Shown piece after piece: positions 33,506 through 46,203 of a stretch of DNA of 64,000 bases. The stretch is from Acidobacteriota bacterium. GTDB taxonomy: Bacteria > Acidobacteriota > Terriglobia > Terriglobales > SCQP01. Location: the NCBI GenBank assembly GCA_027459505.1, contig DAIDIE010000006.1, forward strand, positions 1-64,000, read 5' to 3'. Below the pieces are notes generated by a model. That model saw only the letters and a program-made list of their open reading frames with translations, did not search any database and was not told the DNA's origin. Position 1 is the stretch's first letter. Every line of letters starts with the position of its first letter. The position numbers were made by a program, and so were the translations under genes.

Positions 33506-36172
33506 ATGCGCGTCCGTGCGGCTCTCCGGCTCGCTTTCGTCTGTTTAGCCCTGTTGGCGACGGTCGCCTCGGCCCAGCAACTTCGTGTGCTGGATGAAGG
33601 CCTGCCTCCGATTACACGGCATGCGTTCGGCAACCCGTTGGTGACGCACTATGCGCGTTCCCGGACCTATCATGTCGTGCACTATCGTCTGGGTCTGCAC
33701 TTTGACCAGGGCAAGGGTGAAGTGTTCGGCGATGAGGTCGTGACGGTAGAGCCCTTTCGCAATCACTTCCGCGAACTTGAGCTGGACAGCTCCGGTCTGG
33801 TGATTGATTCCGCTGCGCTGTGGACCGGAAGCGGCAGTCAAACGCCGCTGCGCTTTTCCCTCCACGACCCGCATCTGGACATTGATTTAGGCCGTGATTT
33901 CAGCGCCGGATCGAGCATCGCCGTCCACATCGTCTATCACGGCACGCCGGAGACGGGGCTGTTTTTCATAAATCCCGACAAGAACTATCCCAACGCTCCC
34001 GCTGAGATCTGGTCGCAGGGGGAAGAGGAGTATAACCACTACTGGTTTCCCTGTTATGACTATCCCAATGACAAGGCGACATCGGAGATGTTCATCACCG
34101 TGCCTTCCAACGAGGTGGCCATCTCCAACGGCGCGCTGGTAAGGGTGAGGCGCGCTCACGGCAGGTCGACATTTCATTGGGTGATGCGCGAGCCCATCAG
34201 CAGCTACCTGATTTCGGTGGTGGTGGGTCCTTTGGAAAAGGTGAGCGATCACTACAAGAAGCTTCCCGTGGACTACTACGTTCCGCCCGGCACCAGCCAG
34301 GGCCGGGCGCTGCGTTCTTTTCACCTCACGCCCGACATGATCGGATTTTTCGCCACAACGCTGCAGGTTTCCTATCCCTGGGCCAAGTACGACCAGTCCA
34401 TCGTCCACAACTTCACCGAGGGCGGGATGGAGAACGCCAGCGCCAGCACCGAAATGGAGTGGACGCTGCACAATGCGCAGGCCGATGCCGATTTTGCGAG
34501 CCGCAACCTGGTTTCGCACGAGCTGGCGCACCAGTGGTTTGGCGATCTGGTGACCACGCGCGACTGGGCCGATATCTGGCTCAACGAAGGGTTCGCCACC
34601 TTCATGGAAGCGCTCTACAACGAACACCACAAGGGCACCGACGCGTACCGGTTTGAGATGTGGCGGGACCAGCGTGAGGCGACTTTTGAAGACCGCAGCG
34701 ACTATCGGCGGCCAATTGTGGACGCGCATTACAACAGCAACAACGACATGTTCGACGAGACCACCTACCCGAAAGGGGCCGTGGTGCTGGACATGTTGCG
34801 CTCCATCCTGGGGGACAGGCTCTTTTTCCTTTCCTTGCACAACTACCTGGAGGCGCATCGCTACGGCAACGTGGATACCCACGACCTGGAGGAGGCCATC
34901 CGCGAAACCAGCGGACAGAACCTGGATTGGTTTTTTGATGAATGGGTTTACAAGGCCGGCTACCCGGAGTTCACCGTCAGCGATCATTACGACGCGGTCC
35001 AGAAGATGCTGGTTATCCAGATTCGCCAGACACAGCACGCCGGCAGTCTCACGCCGCTCTTCGACATGCCGGTGCAATTAGCCTTTTACGGGAGCGGGAA
35101 GGAGAGCAAACGCGTCCACATTCGCATTCATCGCCGCGAGCAGACGTTTTACATCGCGCTGGCTTTCCATCCTAATATTGTGGATTTCGATCCCAATGAT
35201 CGCGTTTACAAGCTGCTGACGTTCAAAAAATCCGTGCCGGAACTGATCGCGCAGGCGGAAGGGGATCCGGCGATGATGAGCCGCTTCTGGGCGGTGCGGC
35301 AGTTGGGACAAACGGGGGCGGCGACGGCGGCGGGGACGGCGGCGCTGATTCAGGTGCTGCGCACCGACCCGTTTTACGGCGTGCGGGCGCAGGCAGCATT
35401 GGCGCTGGGGAATGCCGCCAATTCCGCCGCTCAGGCGGCGCTGCTTGACGCCCTGCATGATGCGAGCAGCAAAGTGCGCGCAGCCGCCAACGAGGCGTTG
35501 GGCAAGTACAGGGGGAATCCAGCCGTGTCCCAGGCATTGGTGCAAGAACTCAATGAAGACCCCAGCTACCTCGCCCAGGGCGCGGCTGCCCGAGCGCTGG
35601 CCGCTTCCGGAAATCCCGCCGCCGTTCCCGTGCTGATCGCAAAAGAGCAGGGGCGAATGCGCCAGATGGTACCCAACCAGGTGATTACCGCTCTCGGGCT
35701 GACGCATGATCCCCGAGTATTGCCTGTTCTCTACCAGGCAGCGCTTCCCGGGGAACCGGAACGGGTGCGCATGGCGGCGCTACGCTCGCTGAGCATGTTT
35801 GGCGGCAAGATACCGCCCAAATCGCCCGAGTTGAACCGGGTGGTCTCCAGCGCCCTGGACGATTCGTTTGAGTTTGTGCAGGAGGATGGCATGGATCTGG
35901 CCGTCGCGCTGCAATTACACGCCTTTGAGCCAGAACTGGAGAAACTGGCGACCAGTATTCATGGGGAGAGCGAGCGCAGCCAGAACCGGGCGCGCCAGGC
36001 GCTGGCGGCCTTACGAGGGGCGGCCACCCAACCCGCGGCGGCAGCGATCCATTCAAATACCAGCATTCCCGCCAATAGCGGAACAGTCCAGCGGCTGCAG
36101 CAGCGTGTCCACGAACTGGAGCTCGAGGTCAAGCAGCTGCAACACGGGCAGCAGCCCCATGCAGCGCATTGA
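33506..36172 (+). CDS. M1-family aminopeptidase with HEAT-repeat C-terminus
   Basis: 888 residues, exported (signal peptide ~1-24, ending SAQQ). Zinc site HELAH (338-342) with E361 in LNEGFA, and the substrate-recognition GGMEN (~305) variant of GAMEN. After ~575 the protein becomes Ala/Leu-rich HEAT/ARM-like repeats (e.g. VLRTDPFYGVRAQAALALGN). The last ~35 residues (RLQQRVHELELEVKQLQH) form a coiled coil, an unusual end for the family that suggests oligomerisation. Probably removes N-terminal residues from peptides in the periplasm. Confidence 0.9.
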   Translation: MRVRAALRLAFVCLALLATVASAQQLRVLDEGLPPITRHAFGNPLVTHYARSRTYHVVHYRLGLHFDQGKGEVFGDEVVTVEPFRNHFRELELDSSGLVIDSAALWTGSGSQTPLRFSLHDPHLDIDLGRDFSAGSSIAVHIVYHGTPETGLFFINPDKNYPNAPAEIWSQGEEEYNHYWFPCYDYPNDKATSEMFITVPSNEVAISNGALVRVRRAHGRSTFHWVMREPISSYLISVVVGPLEKVSDHYKKLPVDYYVPPGTSQGRALRSFHLTPDMIGFFATTLQVSYPWAKYDQSIVHNFTEGGMENASASTEMEWTLHNAQADADFASRNLVSHELAHQWFGDLVTTRDWADIWLNEGFATFMEALYNEHHKGTDAYRFEMWRDQREATFEDRSDYRRPIVDAHYNSNNDMFDETTYPKGAVVLDMLRSILGDRLFFLSLHNYLEAHRYGNVDTHDLEEAIRETSGQNLDWFFDEWVYKAGYPEFTVSDHYDAVQKMLVIQIRQTQHAGSLTPLFDMPVQLAFYGSGKESKRVHIRIHRREQTFYIALAFHPNIVDFDPNDRVYKLLTFKKSVPELIAQAEGDPAMMSRFWAVRQLGQTGAATAAGTAALIQVLRTDPFYGVRAQAALALGNAANSAAQAALLDALHDASSKVRAAANEALGKYRGNPAVSQALVQELNEDPSYLAQGAAARALAASGNPAAVPVLIAKEQGRMRQMVPNQVITALGLTHDPRVLPVLYQAALPGEPERVRMAALRSLSMFGGKIPPKSPELNRVVSSALDDSFEFVQEDGMDLAVALQLHAFEPELEKLATSIHGESERSQNRARQALAALRGAATQPAAAAIHSNTSIPANSGTVQRLQQRVHELELEVKQLQHGQQPHAAH

Positions 36173-40098: not shown

Positions 40099-40683
40099 TC
40101 AGGAATCAATTCGACTCGGCTCGTTTAGGGCACCAGGGTAGCTGATCCGCTCGCCCTCCACCCTGGCGAAGGGGGTCAGGCGAGCTGGACGGGCGCTCCC
40201 GGCCAGGTCGCTTTCTTTTGCGCTGACAAACAGATGCCAGACCGTCCAGTGACGTGCCAGAAGGGCATCAGCCACGAGGGAACGATGACAACGCCAGGGG
40301 ACCGCCTCCGCGCACATGATGGCGGCGCGGCGCTGCTGCGCGGCGGCCATGAGTTTTTGCAGGCCAGCCTGAAATTCCTCCGTCTCCATGAAGTCGGCGT
40401 AGCCGCGAAAGGAACTATTCTTCCAGCCCGTATTGTGGGAATCGGGGCGTGGGCGGCGCAGGCCGCCCAGCTCTTTCAGATAGAGATGTTCGATACCCAG
40501 TTTAGCGAGCGCAGCGGGCAGCGTTTCCAGGTTGTACTGCGGGTTGGTACGCGAACGGGGAACGGTGCGGATATCGACCAGCAGACCAATGCGATGCGTT
40601 TTTAAAACCGCGGTAAAGCGCGGCAATGGCAGCGTGGAATGGCCAATGGTCCAAAGCTCCCGCTGGGGCATGGGTTGCCGCAT
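40099..40683 (-). CDS. DUF488 family protein
   Basis: 194 residues. TIGHSTLPLPRFTAVL, VDIRTVPRSRTNPQYN, LYLKELGG, and the closing CAEAVPWRCHRSLVADAL mark DUF488. The Cys/His set could bind metal. Function unknown. A longer frame runs upstream through the E2 gene in the antisense direction, and is not coding. Confidence 0.85.
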   Translation of the reverse strand: MRQPMPQRELWTIGHSTLPLPRFTAVLKTHRIGLLVDIRTVPRSRTNPQYNLETLPAALAKLGIEHLYLKELGGLRRPRPDSHNTGWKNSSFRGYADFMETEEFQAGLQKLMAAAQQRRAAIMCAEAVPWRCHRSLVADALLARHWTVWHLFVSAKESDLAGSARPARLTPFARVEGERISYPGALNEPSRIDS

Positions 40684-41016
40684 GGTTACCCTCAGTGTAG
40701 GCCGCTTCCGGCCGGAGGCGCGGTGGTTCACTCCTAAGGCGCACTGCAAAGCGTCGCGCTCCCCGTGCCACTGGCCGAGCAAGCCCGTTTCGTGGGACCA
40801 TAGTAGCTTCGAGGGTTGGCCGGCAACGAGCAAGCTTCTCCGGGCTGAGTTGCGCGCTTGCCGCCTGATCGAAGCAGCTCGATATCCGGACGCATCCGCC
40901 GCAGCCCCGCTCGCGCCAGGGAATCTGACTACTCCTGGGAAAAGGTGAACTCCCGTCGCGAAGCGGGCCACGTGCGCTTGATGATCCGGTTGCAAACGCC
41001 GTAAACGAGGAAGCTC

Positions 41017-42345
41017 ATGGCCATTGATGTCGTCATGCCCCAGATGGGCGAGTCTATTTTTGAAGGCACGGTCAGCCGTTGGCTGAAGAAGCCGGGTGAC
41101 AAGGTGCAGAGGGACGAGCCCCTGGTGGAGATCTCCACCGACAAGGTGGACGCGGAAGTACCCGCCCCCGCCGCCGGCGTTTTGAAAGAGATCAAGGTGC
41201 AGGCAGGGCAGACGGTGCAGGTCAACACCGTCCTGGCCACGCTGGATGCGGAAGGCGCCAGTGCCGCCGCGCCCGCTCCGCAAGCGGCGCAGCCGCAGGT
41301 CTCGGCCGCGGCGCCCGCGGAGACGGTGACCGCACCCGCCGCCGTCAGCAATGCCCCAAGTGCTCAAGCGCCGCGGGCGCAGAGCGCTCCCGCGCCAGCG
41401 GCACCGGCACCGGCGGCCACAGTGGCTGAGCCGGCGGCCAGCGGCGGCGCCACCGTGCGCTCCTCGCCGTTGGTGCGGCGTCTGGCCAAAGAAAACAACG
41501 TCGATCTCGCGCAGATCCCCGGCAGCGGAAGCAGTGGCCGCGTCTCCAAACGTGACCTGCTGCAGTTTGTGGAATCGCGGGGGCCAGGGGCGCCGGGCGC
41601 CAGCGCGGCCCCGCCGGCCGCTCCCGCAGCGCCCGCCGGACCCAGCTTTACCGGCCCGGTAGAAATTGTCCCCATGACGCTCATGCGCAAGCGCATTGCC
41701 GAGCACATGGTGGCCAGCAAGCGTACCTCGCCGCACGTCTATAGCGTTTTCCAGGTGGACGTCACCCGCATCAACTCGGTTCGCGAAAAGAACAAACGCG
41801 AATTCGAGGCCACCACGGGTGCGCGCCTGACCTTTATGCCGTTCTTCGCGCAGGCGACCGTCGAGGCGCTGAAGAAATTCCCCATCGTCAACTCTTCCGT
41901 GCAGGAAGACTCGATTGTGTACAAACGGGATGTGAACCTGGGCATCGCGGTGGCGCTGGACTGGGGCTTGATCGTTCCCGTTATCAAGCACGCCGATGAG
42001 AAGAACTTTTTGGGACTGCAGCGCGCCGTCAACGATCTGGCGGAGCGGGCGCGGGCCAAGAAGCTGTCGCCCGACGACATTCAGGACGGCACCTTCACGA
42101 TCAGCAATTACGGCATCTACGGTGGTCTGATTGGCATGCCGGTGATCAACCAGCCCCAGGTTGCCATCCTGGGAATCGGCGGGATTCACAAGACGCCGGT
42201 TGTGGTGAACGACGCCATCGCCATTCGTTCGCTGGTGCACTTGACGCTCAGTTTCGATCACCGCGTCATCGATGGATCCACCGCCGACCAATTTCTGGCC
42301 TTCATGAAAGAGCGGCTGGAAGGCTGGGATTCGCCGGTCCTCTAA
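41017..42345 (+). CDS. Dihydrolipoamide acyltransferase (E2) of a 2-oxoacid dehydrogenase complex
   Basis: 442 residues. N-terminal lipoyl domain with the modified lysine K43 (STDKVDAE), a long Ala/Pro linker (~80-145), the E1/E3-binding domain (SSPLVRRLAKENNVDLAQIP), and the catalytic domain with SFDHRVIDG near the end. Transfers the acyl group from lipoate to CoA. Whether pyruvate, 2-oxoglutarate or branched-chain cannot be told: no E1 or E3 gene is adjacent. Confidence 0.92.
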   Translation: MAIDVVMPQMGESIFEGTVSRWLKKPGDKVQRDEPLVEISTDKVDAEVPAPAAGVLKEIKVQAGQTVQVNTVLATLDAEGASAAAPAPQAAQPQVSAAAPAETVTAPAAVSNAPSAQAPRAQSAPAPAAPAPAATVAEPAASGGATVRSSPLVRRLAKENNVDLAQIPGSGSSGRVSKRDLLQFVESRGPGAPGASAAPPAAPAAPAGPSFTGPVEIVPMTLMRKRIAEHMVASKRTSPHVYSVFQVDVTRINSVREKNKREFEATTGARLTFMPFFAQATVEALKKFPIVNSSVQEDSIVYKRDVNLGIAVALDWGLIVPVIKHADEKNFLGLQRAVNDLAERARAKKLSPDDIQDGTFTISNYGIYGGLIGMPVINQPQVAILGIGGIHKTPVVVNDAIAIRSLVHLTLSFDHRVIDGSTADQFLAFMKERLEGWDSPVL

Positions 42346-42370
42346 TCGCTCTGCAGCACGTTTCGAGGAC

Positions 42371-42396
42371 AGGGGGCTCGCCGGGAGCCCCCTTTT
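42371..42396 (+). terminator. Intrinsic terminator after E2
   Basis: GGGGGCTCGCCGGGAGCCCC followed by CCTTTT: a compact stem with T run, 26 bp after the E2 stop. Confidence 0.8.
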
Positions 42397-42423
42397 CACT
42401 GTCTGAAAGAAAATAGGGCAGAC

Positions 42424-45048
42424 GTGAACGATCTCGCTACCTACCTCGCCGCCCTGGCCGACTCACAAGCCATTGCGCTCATCGAGGACGGCGTTTACCG
42501 CCGGCGTTCCTACAGCTATGCCGAGTTGCTGGGCAAAGCGTTTGCCTTGCGGGACGAGTTCAACCGGCGGGGGGTGGGAGCGGGGGACAAGATCATCATT
42601 TGGGGGGCGGCGGGCGCCTCCTGGGCGATTGCGTTCTACGCCTGCATCTTTGCGGGCGCGGTGGCAGTACCGGCGGAAGCCGGGTATTCGCAAGCGTTTA
42701 TTGAGCGCGTGCAGGCCAAGACCTCGGCGCGCCTGCTCTGCTGTCCCGCACAGCTTGCGGCGGCGCTGCCGGCGAGCGATCCCATCACTTTCGAGGCGAT
42801 TGAGAATTTGGCGCCGCTGCCTCCCCCGTATGAGGTGATCAGCGCCGCGCCGGAAGCGCTGCTGCAGATTGTCTTCACCTCGGGAACCACCTCCGATCCC
42901 AAAGGGGTGATGATCACGCACGGCAATCTGCTCGCCAACCTGCGCCCCATTCAGCACGAGGTAGCGAAGTACAAGCCGAAGGCGCGGCTGCTGCTGCCGC
43001 TGCGGTTCGTGCACCTGATTCCCCTCAGTCACCTGTTTGGGCAGGTGATGGGTCTGTTTATACCGACCCTGCTGGAGAGCGCGGTGGTATTTCCGGAGAG
43101 TCAGAGTCCGGCCGCCCTGGCCGCCTGCATCAAGCGCCACCGCGCTTCGGTGCTGGTGGCGGTGCCACAGCAGTTGGAGCTGTTTCTGGATTGGACGCGC
43201 CAGCAATTGGCCCGCAAGGGGAAGGCGCCGGGCAATGAAGAGATCATCGCCGCGTCGCAGGGAATGCGATTTCTCAAGCGCTGGTGGCATTGGCGCCGCC
43301 TGCATCGCCTGCTGGGCTGGAAGTTCTGGGCGTTCATTGTGGGCGCGGCCACCCTGCCCAGTACGCAGGAGGAGACCTGGAACGCTCTGGGGTATGCGGT
43401 TGTGCAGGGATACGGACTGACGGAAACCGCTCCCGCCGTGGCCATTACCCATCCTTTCAAGATCCGGCGCGGCGCAGTAGGCAAAAAGCTTGCTGGCGTT
43501 GAGATCAGGATCGCCCAAGACGGCGAGATCCTGGTGCGCGGACCGAACGTCTCGCCAGGGTACTTCGAGGACCCGGAAGCAACCGGCCAACGGTTTCAAG
43601 ACGGTTGGCTGCACACCGGCGATCTCGGCCGCCTGGATGAGCAGGGCAACCTGATCTTTCTCTCCCGCAAGAAAGATGTCATCGTCACCAGTGAAGGCTT
43701 GAATGTCTACCCCGACGAGGTGGAACGCGCTCTGGAGCAAGAACCGGAAATCGCCGAAGCCGCCGTGGTGAGCGCCGAGTCCGATGGCCAGCGCAGCACC
43801 GTTCACGCGGTTCTGGTGCCGCAGCATCGCGATTTGCCGCCCGAGCGCCAGCAGGAGGAGTTGAGCGCGGCGGTGGCGCGGGTCAATAGCCGATTGGAGC
43901 GCCACCAGCGTCTGCGCGGCTTCACGATCTGGCCGCAAGCGGCGTTGCCCCGCACCGCTGGCACGGCAAAATTGCAACGTGCCGCGGTGCGTGAGTGGGT
44001 GCGGAACGGCGCCAACGCCAGCGCGGCGCCATCCACTGCCGTCGCGGGAGACTGGCGCGCCATGCTTGCGGGAAAGCTGGGATTGCCGCTGGAGCGCCTG
44101 CGCGACGAGGCCCGCCTGGAGGAGTTGGGATTCTCCTCACTGGATCGAATCGAGCTACTGGTCTGGCTGGAAGCGCATTACGGTCAGCAACTTTCCGAGG
44201 CACAGCTTGCGCCCGCGGAGACGATTGGCCAACTGGCGGCGGTGCTGGACCCGCTGTGGAAGCCGGCGGTGGCATCCGCGGCAAATCAGGCCGAAACCGG
44301 GGCCAGGGCGAACTCGCGCGTCATGGCTCCGAAACTGGGCTCCGCGGATTCCGCGCCGGAGTCGCTGTATCCCGCGTGGCCACATGCTCCCACGGTGCGT
44401 ACGGCGCGGACGCTCGCGCGCGAAGCAGTGATGCTGCCGCTGCTGCGCACGGTGGCGCAGCTGGAGATTGAAGGGCGTGAGCATCTGCGCGGCCTGCGCC
44501 GCCCGCTGATGTTCGTCAGCAATCACCAGAGCCTTCTGGACGTGCCGGCGATCCTCAGAGCGCTGCCCTGGGAGTGGCGCCCGTGGCTGGCACCGATGAT
44601 GGGGGCGGAAACCTTTGCCGCCGCCTGGAGCGCACCCCATACGGCCGCCGCGCGGTTGGCGCGCCGACGCATCTGGCTGCTGCGCTCGTTCCTGAATACT
44701 TACCTGCTGGGTGGCGCGGCCGGAGTGCAGGGGGCGCTACGGCATTCGGGATGGCTGGTTGAGCGGGGCTATTGTCCGCTGCTGTTTCCGGAAGGCCGCC
44801 GCACCACCGATGGCGCGCTGCAGGCCTTTCGCCCGGGTGTCGGCGTGTTTGTCCACGCCCTGCGCCTGCCGGTGGTCCCCATCGTTCTCGACGGTCTCTA
44901 CGATATCCTGCCCACCGGCGCGGAACATGCGAAGCGTGGCCGCGCCCTTGTGCGCATTGCTCCCGCCTGGCAGTTTGAGACGGAGGGCCCCGAAGAGATC
45001 ACCGCCAAACTCCAGCAGTGGTATCAGCAGCAACCGGAGCTTCGCTGA
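42424..45048 (+). CDS. Fused acyl-adenylate ligase, acyl carrier and PlsC-type acyltransferase
   Basis: 874 residues in three parts. (1) ANL adenylating domain, ~1-540, with phosphate loop TSGTTSDPKG (152-161), GYGLTETAP and HTGDLG. (2) A carrier-protein domain ~545-625 with probable phosphopantetheine serine S572 in GFSSLDRIEL. (3) A PlsC/LPLAT domain ~680-874 with the H701-X4-D706 catalytic motif (NHQSLLD) and FPEGRRT. The protein could activate a fatty acid, load it on its own carrier and transfer it to a lysophospholipid, in effect a fused Aas-like system (inference). GTG start at 42424. Confidence 0.9.
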   Translation: MNDLATYLAALADSQAIALIEDGVYRRRSYSYAELLGKAFALRDEFNRRGVGAGDKIIIWGAAGASWAIAFYACIFAGAVAVPAEAGYSQAFIERVQAKTSARLLCCPAQLAAALPASDPITFEAIENLAPLPPPYEVISAAPEALLQIVFTSGTTSDPKGVMITHGNLLANLRPIQHEVAKYKPKARLLLPLRFVHLIPLSHLFGQVMGLFIPTLLESAVVFPESQSPAALAACIKRHRASVLVAVPQQLELFLDWTRQQLARKGKAPGNEEIIAASQGMRFLKRWWHWRRLHRLLGWKFWAFIVGAATLPSTQEETWNALGYAVVQGYGLTETAPAVAITHPFKIRRGAVGKKLAGVEIRIAQDGEILVRGPNVSPGYFEDPEATGQRFQDGWLHTGDLGRLDEQGNLIFLSRKKDVIVTSEGLNVYPDEVERALEQEPEIAEAAVVSAESDGQRSTVHAVLVPQHRDLPPERQQEELSAAVARVNSRLERHQRLRGFTIWPQAALPRTAGTAKLQRAAVREWVRNGANASAAPSTAVAGDWRAMLAGKLGLPLERLRDEARLEELGFSSLDRIELLVWLEAHYGQQLSEAQLAPAETIGQLAAVLDPLWKPAVASAANQAETGARANSRVMAPKLGSADSAPESLYPAWPHAPTVRTARTLAREAVMLPLLRTVAQLEIEGREHLRGLRRPLMFVSNHQSLLDVPAILRALPWEWRPWLAPMMGAETFAAAWSAPHTAAARLARRRIWLLRSFLNTYLLGGAAGVQGALRHSGWLVERGYCPLLFPEGRRTTDGALQAFRPGVGVFVHALRLPVVPIVLDGLYDILPTGAEHAKRGRALVRIAPAWQFETEGPEEITAKLQQWYQQQPELR

Positions 45049-45062
45049 GGAGACACTTCCCT

Positions 45063-45989
45063 TCAGCTCTGCAATCGCCAGGTTCGCATAGCGAGTACCA
45101 GCGTAGTGGCCAACAAGAGGGCGCCATTGGAAACGTGTGCGGCGGTGAGCAGCGCCATCAGGGGTCTGGGCCAGCCGGTGATGCCGGCATAGCGGGTGAT
45201 GTAGGCGCCAAAGCCGAGCCCAACCTGCAGCAGCAAGACGAACAAGATCAGGATAGCCGGGCGGCGTAGATCCATGACTGGGAGATGTTGATCAACAACG
45301 GGGGGCGCGGAGCTGAGCACGCGCACGGCGGTCCAGATCAGCAGCGAGCTGACCAGCCAGGCGAAGAGGAAGTGCGGCAGCAATCCAAAAGCGCCGTTGC
45401 GGAAGGCGGCGCCCAGAAAAAGCTGTAGTCCAACCGCGGCCACGCAACACACCGTCAGGCGCTGCAGGGAGTGGTGGGCGCCAGTTTGCGGCGATGGAGC
45501 ATGGGGAGGCGCTTCCAGCCAGCCGCGGCTGGTCATCACGGACGCGGCCACCGCCAGCCCGAAGAAGGTCTGCGCCAGCACCGCGTGACCGGTCACGATC
45601 CAGGGCGGCAGAAAGCGCAGCACGGTGATGCCGCCCAGCAGCGCCTGCAGCACGACAGCACCAAACATGTAGAGCACCAGCATGCGCAGGCTATGGCGCC
45701 GATCGCTTTTCCACGCCGCGACGCCAAAGGCAATCGTGAGCAGAATGACCACTCCAGCGATCATGCGGTGCCCATGCTCGTACAGCACTCCTCCGGTCAT
45801 GGCGGGCATGCGGAATGTGCCAAAGGAAGTGGGCCAATCCGGGACCGACAGTCCGGCTTGCATGGAGATGACCAGCGCGCCCACCGTCACCAGAACCCAT
45901 GTGAAGGCGGTGAGGGTAAGAGCCAGGCGATGGAGTCCGCGATGAAAGGCACAGACCGGAGTGGAGGAGATATGGGCAGGAGCACTCAT
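45063..45989 (-). CDS. ctaA: Heme A synthase, COX15/CtaA family
   Basis: 308 residues, about eight transmembrane helices. Conserved histidines sit in YEHGHRMIAG and TGHAVLAQ, plus two more in the second half (LLPHFLFAW, LLTAAHVSN). Oxidises heme O to heme A for cytochrome oxidase. No cytochrome oxidase genes are adjacent. Start at 45989 chosen because the first helix begins soon after; the longer frame to 46079 is not supported. Confidence 0.9.
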   Translation of the reverse strand: MSAPAHISSTPVCAFHRGLHRLALTLTAFTWVLVTVGALVISMQAGLSVPDWPTSFGTFRMPAMTGGVLYEHGHRMIAGVVILLTIAFGVAAWKSDRRHSLRMLVLYMFGAVVLQALLGGITVLRFLPPWIVTGHAVLAQTFFGLAVAASVMTSRGWLEAPPHAPSPQTGAHHSLQRLTVCCVAAVGLQLFLGAAFRNGAFGLLPHFLFAWLVSSLLIWTAVRVLSSAPPVVDQHLPVMDLRRPAILILFVLLLQVGLGFGAYITRYAGITGWPRPLMALLTAAHVSNGALLLATTLVLAMRTWRLQS

Positions 45990-46203
45990 GTCCTGTCTAT
46001 GCTGCCCGAGTGAGGGTCTGTCGCCAGTGATGCCCGGCACACGGCAGGCAGGTTTAGGGCTACGGACCAACGCGTTCACATTTCAACGAGACCCACATTT
46101 TCCACTCGGGACTGGTCGCCCTCTGTGGTCGCCCTTTGTAGGATTGCCGCATCCAAACAAGTGAGTGCGCCGCGAAAAAGAACGCTGTCAGGGGAAGAGG
46201 ATT

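Follow-up and report, generated by a model that had tools for sequence, protein, structure and literature searches.

A reductase-free variant of the ElbD arrangement, joining ligase, acyl carrier and PlsC-type acyltransferase in one chain, is conserved in many Acidobacteriota genomes

Results

Domain organization of the fused protein

The window, by which we mean the whole stretch of 64,000 nucleotides that was analysed (contig DAIDIE010000006.1 of an Acidobacteriota bacterium), contains at 42424-45048 on the forward strand a frame that begins with GTG, runs for 874 codons and ends at a stop codon. The gene, its parts and one feature in front of it are as follows, with the kind of evidence in brackets.

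42372..42396, + strand: terminator-like hairpin with four consecutive T, in the gap that separates the E2 dehydrogenase gene from the gene under study (sequence, folding)
42424..45048, stop codon included, + strand: whole gene, 874 aa, ligase, carrier and PlsC-type acyltransferase in this order (open reading frame, Pfam, AlphaFold)
42466..43566, + strand: AMP-binding (ANL) N-terminal domain, residues 15-381, with TSGTTSDPKG (152-161) and GYGLTE (329-334) (Pfam, conservation, fold match)
43675..43971, + strand: AMP-binding C-terminal domain, Pfam residues 418-514, with Lys516 directly behind it in the motif PRTAGTAKLQR (Pfam, K in 45/45)
44056..44244, + strand: acyl-carrier (PP-binding) domain, residues 545-607 (Pfam; the nearest solved sequences are acyl carrier proteins)
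44137..44139, + strand: Ser572 in LGFSSL, predicted phosphopantetheine site (invariant in 21/21 and 45/45)
44269..44355, + strand: low-confidence linker between carrier and acyltransferase, residues 616-644 (pLDDT < 50)
44461..44889, + strand: PlsC-type acyltransferase, residues 680-822, with NHQSLLD (His701, Asp706) and FPEGRR (Glu790, Arg793) (Pfam, conservation, fold match to 5kym_A)
44695..44727, + strand: acyltransferase motif II region NTYLLGGAAGV, without the PlsC arginine (alignment)

By hmmscan against Pfam, the protein matches AMP-binding at residues 15-381 (E 1.1e-57), AMP-binding_C_3 at 418-514, PP-binding at 545-607 (E 1.6e-10) and PF01553 at 680-822 (E 2e-9), all above the gathering score, and an additional weak match to PF13193 falls slightly below its cut-off (24.1 against 24.5). 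These matches bear out an earlier sequence-only reading of this DNA, which had placed a ligase, an acyl carrier and a PlsC domain in one chain and the carrier serine at residue 572. The ligase also carries a WLHTGD motif, and we take the ligase motifs, Lys516 and LGFSSL with its Ser572 to be the catalytic motifs of their families. Both the HX4D and EG-R motifs and the fold of the PlsC/AGPAT superfamily are present in the acyltransferase. The same reading had held that the key motifs are kept in all three domains, which is true of the ligase, the carrier and the His/Asp pair and motif III of the acyltransferase, but not of its motif II. By sequence and fold, CoA ligases and their relatives are the nearest solved ligases, and among NCBIfam models the ligase matches a long-chain acyl-CoA ligase best, at 212.2 bits far below the cut-off of 476. 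Its N-terminal domain measures 367 residues against 375 positions of the Pfam profile, so that a long FAAL-type insertion is not evident.

Conservation and distribution

The window protein and its reductase-free relatives form a clade for which we coined the label S in this analysis. Conservation was assessed in 45 S members, the window protein included, chosen from a larger fetched set; four antisense frames picked up by the length rule were left out, and one locus, L048, gave only such a frame. AMP-binding and PF01553 were matched in 45/45 members and PP-binding in 43/45, indicating that the carrier is kept along with both enzymes. Fifteen residues spread over the three domains are identical in all 45: Gly154, Gly161, Thr333, Glu334, Gly399, Asp400, Arg415, Lys516 and Ser572 in the ligase and carrier, and Asn700, His701, Asp706, Pro789, Glu790 and Gly791 in the acyltransferase. 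Three more are nearly invariant, namely Thr156 (T in 44, S in one), Lys160 (K in 42, R in three) and Arg793 (R in 41). Such agreement of domain matches and residues across 45 relatives excludes a chance fusion. The three-domain architecture is therefore real, conserved and widespread, and S occurs in many Acidobacteriota genomes.

With the window protein as query, a match at E <= 1e-60 was found in 43 of 60 related genomes, its own included. Among 297 Acidobacteriota genomes, 229 have a match at E <= 1e-40, the lower end of which takes in free-standing ligases and ElbD types, and 78 have one at E <= 1e-95, the range of the S sequences that were examined (class assigned by E-value, with three candidates scored per genome). 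In Myxococcota, 59 of 112 genomes match at E <= 1e-40, and in 35 of the 112 the match extends at least as far as residue 600 and lies in a frame of 1298 aa or longer. The exceptions are G393, with a match past residue 600 in a 662-aa frame, and G388, with a 920-aa frame matching the ligase part only. Since almost all long matches there lie in frames of at least 1298 aa, no clear S type was seen among the 112 Myxococcota genomes searched. A tblastn search for plasmid copies gave three records, which match the ligase part only.

Two S-type loci deviate in their reading frames. At L066 (G305:C2:327831-330296) the copy is broken by a TAG stop between the ligase-carrier part and the acyltransferase, and it was excluded from the trees owing to this internal stop. 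At L059:1414-4836 the frame (1141 aa) carries about 330 added residues N-terminal to the ligase, without a Pfam match in that part.

Structure models

AlphaFold modelled the whole chain from a 45-row alignment with a pLDDT of 88.8 and a pTM of 0.89, and loose joints (pLDDT < 50) flank the carrier on both sides, at residues 535-539 and 616-644. The best VIA-align match of the ligase is MatB (4fut, Z 42.0, rmsd 3.0 over 390), and its top fold matches comprise MatB, MenE and other ligases; the MenE ternary complex 5x8f fits on the ligase alone at rmsd 4.2 (Foldseek). Foldseek further aligned 658 columns of the model to EntF in its thioester-forming state (5t3d, rmsd 5.3) and 644 columns to LgrA in its thiolation state (5es8, rmsd 5.7). 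As the ligase ends near residue 530, alignments of this length must extend into the carrier, and the model suggests that Ser572 may dock at the ligase site. However, the EntE-EntB fusions (3rg2), which rank above EntF and LgrA by E-value, fit only at rmsd 13-14, so that the resemblance to carrier-loading states varies with the template.

Whole-model VIA-align rows mostly cover residues 1-529, and the acyltransferase domain was therefore modelled and searched separately (pLDDT 93.2). It comes nearest to Thermotoga maritima PlsC (5kym_A; Z 19.9, rmsd 3.0, 197 residues), followed by glycerol-3-phosphate acyltransferases (Z 16.5), PatA (Z 12.0) and LpxM (Z 10.0).

Acceptor site of the acyltransferase

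In the window protein the catalytic His and Asp and the motif III Glu and Arg are retained, while the motif II arginine and the lysine of typical lysophosphatidate acyltransferases are absent; the stretch from Asp706 to Asn758 contains not a single lysine. When aligned with E. coli PlsC, the domain likewise showed neither part of the lysophosphatidate-specific signature, that is, the lysine before PxxG and the arginine of motif II. The motifs of such acyltransferases, including a conserved arginine in motif II of LPAATs, are described in the cited text of PMC6688108, which also relays the suggestion that two residues of T. maritima PlsC, K105 and R159, contact the LPA phosphate.

The distribution of these residues is uneven. 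Arginine occupies the motif II column in 13 of 56 S members, in all 17 ElbD types, in none of the seven proteins of a further group, M (described below), and not in E. coli Aas, which also lacks the lysine at the aligned columns. One position past motif II, at the column of residue 765, an arginine (PLPQR) occurs in 20/45 S members, the window protein not among them, and alignment may thus mask the motif II arginine in those members. The second lysine column holds lysine in 15 of 56 S members and in two of 17 ElbD types; loss of the lysine is therefore not a general property of S, nor is it confined to S. This genome encodes two free-standing PlsC-like proteins, one of which also has neither lysine aligned and a His at motif II; the lysine in its ARKGLF segment looks shifted, suggesting that the alignment columns are inexact. 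The missing motif II arginine and lysine imply that the acceptor may differ from lysophosphatidate. However, given the scattered Arg and Lys, the kept motif III arginine and the inexact columns, this is a weak argument for an acceptor other than lysophosphatidate.

Relation to ElbD types and to group M

For comparison we used ElbD types of Myxococcales MAGs and of Pyrinomonas, which stand in for ElbD of Myxococcus xanthus. Profiles of S and of the ElbD types align collinearly through ligase, carrier and acyltransferase (812 columns at an hhalign probability of 100), and the window protein is 28% identical to a Myxococcales ElbD-type protein. The reductase models PF07993 and PF03015 were matched in 7/7 Acidobacteriota ElbD types (1447-1475 aa), one of them from Pyrinomonas. 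In Myxococcota, a protein from a Myxococcales MAG and one from a further genome of the phylum also matched them, the second with PF03015 just below the cut-off. By contrast, none of the 45 S members matches a fatty acyl reductase model, and an ElbD query against the window's genome gave no match to any part of its first 570 residues.

In ligase trees S forms one side of a starred branch that excludes ElbD and M. The short and unresolved acyltransferase tree does not recover S as one clade: a long branch of six free-standing proteins lies within it, with poor support. That S, M and ElbD inherited the three-domain chain from one ancestor is neither shown nor rejected by these sequence comparisons, with a p-AU of 0.171 for the ligase and, for the acyltransferase, of 0.19, or 0.21 when M is omitted.

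Group M is a second ligase-carrier-acyltransferase set (L091:7892-10654, L092, L093, L094, L097, L098 and L198). Its seven proteins of 913-923 aa are too short for a reductase (Pfam was run on L091 only), have VPVDPD or a close variant as an Aas-like motif II and group together with ElbD in the ligase trees, with support of 87-88 and no star. In six Myxococcota genomes (G368, G388, G416, G422, G433 and G377) ElbD-type matches lie in frames of 2009-2257 aa, longer than ElbD itself.

Genomic surroundings

Upstream of the gene lies an E2 dehydrogenase gene on the same strand (41017-42345, +), and downstream, convergent, a CtaA-like gene (45063-46079, -). The hairpin at 42372-42396 folds with a z of -2.0, 8/200 shuffles folding equally well, and it is not among the calls of a terminator scan; it may allow separate transcription of the E2 gene and the gene under study. 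A promoter scan found nothing. An operon with the E2 gene is not supported, given this hairpin in the gap and the absence of E2 beside any of the 31 other loci examined, which include 17 S loci. At E 1e-4, the only one of eight window neighbours to turn up beside those 31 loci was an M48 peptidase, matched once, next to an ElbD type. Close relatives have neighbours in common, but no neighbour family is common to more than 3/17 S loci, and the neighbours thus indicate no pathway; in this analysis L074 and L088 were without a main hit under the gene-picking rule. Beside eight ElbD-type loci we found a HAD phosphatase (six loci), a lactate-racemase-like gene (five), a diacylglycerol-kinase-like gene (four) and an epimerase (three), whereas these four groups occur beside 0/17 S loci, with genes chosen by a crude length rule.

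The same genome encodes PlsY, two free-standing PlsC-like proteins and one Aas-type protein, the last matching PRK08633 at 946.7 bits, below the cut-off of 1221 and with the first 412 profile positions uncovered. It also has one phosphopantetheinyl-transferase match and five other carrier matches. Elsewhere in the window, 33506-36172 (+) encodes an M1-family aminopeptidase-like protein of 888 aa whose peptidase domain is followed by fused HEAT-type repeats, and at 40099-42399 (-) the C-terminal part of a 766-aa frame corresponds to a DUF488 gene, while the remainder, antisense to the E2 gene, is probably non-coding.

Discussion

We consider the window protein, with moderate rather than high confidence, to be a self-loading acyltransferase and a reductase-free relative of ElbD, which would probably make ester rather than ether lipids and whose acceptor would be a lysophospholipid or other lysolipid sooner than lysophosphatidate. 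Its family and intact motifs suggest that the ligase would turn a free fatty acid and ATP into acyl-AMP. The carrier, with phosphopantetheine on Ser572, would then be loaded in cis to give an acyl thioester, as the likeness of the model to carrier-loading states of peptide synthetases suggests. Flexibly tethered, the carrier could swing across to the PlsC-type domain, whose His701/Asp706 pair would O-acylate the lipid acceptor at a hydroxyl. The intact motifs, the loose joints, the likeness to EntF and LgrA, the collinearity with ElbD and the phosphopantetheinyl-transferase match in this genome are all consistent with self-loading. The route itself, to activate a fatty acid, hold it and pass it to a lipid, had been proposed in the sequence-only reading and is still the best reading of the anatomy.

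Other interpretations have to be weighed against it. The same chemistry might serve an acceptor that is not a glycerophospholipid but a glycolipid, a lipid A-like sugar or an amino lipid, which we regard as unlikely, though it is suggested by the PatA and LpxM matches of the acyltransferase model and by the absent PlsC acceptor residues; both PlsC and the glycerol-3-phosphate acyltransferases score above PatA and LpxM, and Glu790 and Arg793 of an EGTR-like motif are retained. It appears improbable that the protein is an ether-lipid enzyme, in effect a divided ElbD that acylates or loads a precursor while a separate reductase provides the alkyl chain. The collinear homology with ElbD types would fit such a role, as would the reports, in the cited passages, that ElbD is required for most of the ether lipid of M. 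xanthus (PMC9131029) and that Acidobacteria have ether and membrane-spanning lipids (PMC4644332, PMC13274423). However, no S member examined matches a reductase model, the ligase trees separate S from ElbD, the neighbour families of ElbD types are missing beside the 17 S loci, and the ElbD query, which covers reductases of the ElbD type, found no such part in the window's genome. Moreover, Pyrinomonas methylaliphatogenes, described in the cited sources as an ether-lipid maker, has a full ElbD besides its S copy.

Rather improbable, too, is a ligase that yields acyl-CoA for general use, with the carrier charged by fatty acid synthesis, so that the fusion would be a meeting point and not a closed chain. 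The CoA ligases among the nearest solved structures, and the long-chain acyl-CoA ligase model as best NCBIfam match, even at its score far below the cut-off, point in this direction. Against it, Ser572 is conserved as strictly as the ligase residues of the same chain, and the model is similar to solved structures of two proteins in carrier-loading states. We also mention, as very unlikely speculation, that S could be an ester-forming counterpart of ElbD, a route by which Acidobacteriota, in lineages where special long branched or membrane-spanning (iso-diabolic) acids are mostly ester-bound, activate and hold these acids on a single enzyme and load them onto lysolipids.

If the closed chain were demonstrated, the protein would be a compact example of a single enzyme that activates a fatty acid, loads a carrier and acylates a lipid. 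Its relation to ElbD also bears on surveys. Metagenome counts described in the cited part of PMC11868695 take elbD homologues as a sign of ether-lipid capacity (blastp, E < 1e-30, identity >= 30%). The window protein matches ElbD types at E far better than 1e-30 and at an identity of about 24 to 34%, depending on the alignment, so that some S proteins could be counted despite the missing reductase. The cultured ether-lipid maker Pyrinomonas methylaliphatogenes K22 (L126, L192), with its full ElbD and S-type protein, is a handy strain for separating the roles of the two.

Like E. coli Aas, the 2-acyl-GPE acyltransferase / acyl-ACP synthetase, the window protein has a ligase and a PlsC-type acyltransferase in one chain, with a motif II that lacks Arg in both. 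Unlike Aas, it has the reverse domain order and its own carrier. This contrast had been drawn correctly in the earlier reading, as Aas carries the acyltransferase first and the ligase second and has no carrier-profile match. Sequence similarity between the two is weak (102 and 39 bits), and membership in the Aas family was rejected on domain order and on the lack of a carrier in Aas. T. maritima PlsC (5kym) is nearest to the acyltransferase domain among solved structures in both fold and sequence; it is free-standing, and of its two suggested phosphate contacts the window domain keeps Arg only at the second site (R159) and not Lys at K105. Bacterial FAAL-like fusions with lysophospholipid acyltransferases are mentioned, without names, in the relevant text of PMC8460268, and besides ElbD no named ligase-carrier-PlsC protein was found in the literature searched.

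The closest known system is ElbD, which belongs to ether lipid biosynthesis in M. xanthus (Lorenzen et al. 2014, as relayed in PMC9131029, PMC9426513 and PMC10087280). As summarized in PMC9131029 after Lorenzen 2014, ElbD consists of a reductase, an acyl-CoA synthetase, a carrier and an AGPAT-like acyltransferase, and its ligase and carrier activities were confirmed in vitro; the same text reports that acyltransferase activity of isolated ElbD was not detected. The elbD homologues of sponge microbiomes, in the account of PMC9426513, have the identical four-domain set, while almost all ElbD-like homologues of other phyla are said to be without the reductase (PMC9131029, after Lorenzen 2014). 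Like ElbD, the window protein fuses a ligase, a carrier and a PlsC/AGPAT-like acyltransferase, in the same order, an arrangement that is common in the Acidobacteriota and Myxococcota genomes searched. The built-in carrier, which had been taken for the unusual part, is therefore not what sets the protein apart; its distinctive features are the missing reductase and the altered acceptor-site signature. Unlike ElbD, it has no N-terminal fatty acyl reductase (PF07993 and PF03015), nor has any other of the 45 S members; the elb-type neighbours (HAD phosphatase, epimerase and a third gene) are not beside S; and the motif II Arg carried by every ElbD type is missing from the window protein and is kept by a minority of S. 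Orthology with ElbD was accordingly rejected, on the lack of a reductase and of elb-type neighbours and on the separate clade in the ligase trees. Compared by their description in the cited text of PMC9131029, the ElbD-like homologues without FAR1 share with the window protein the ligase, the carrier, the acyltransferase and the absence of a reductase. Thus the S clade is a reductase-free variant of an arrangement whose built-in carrier was already known from ElbD.
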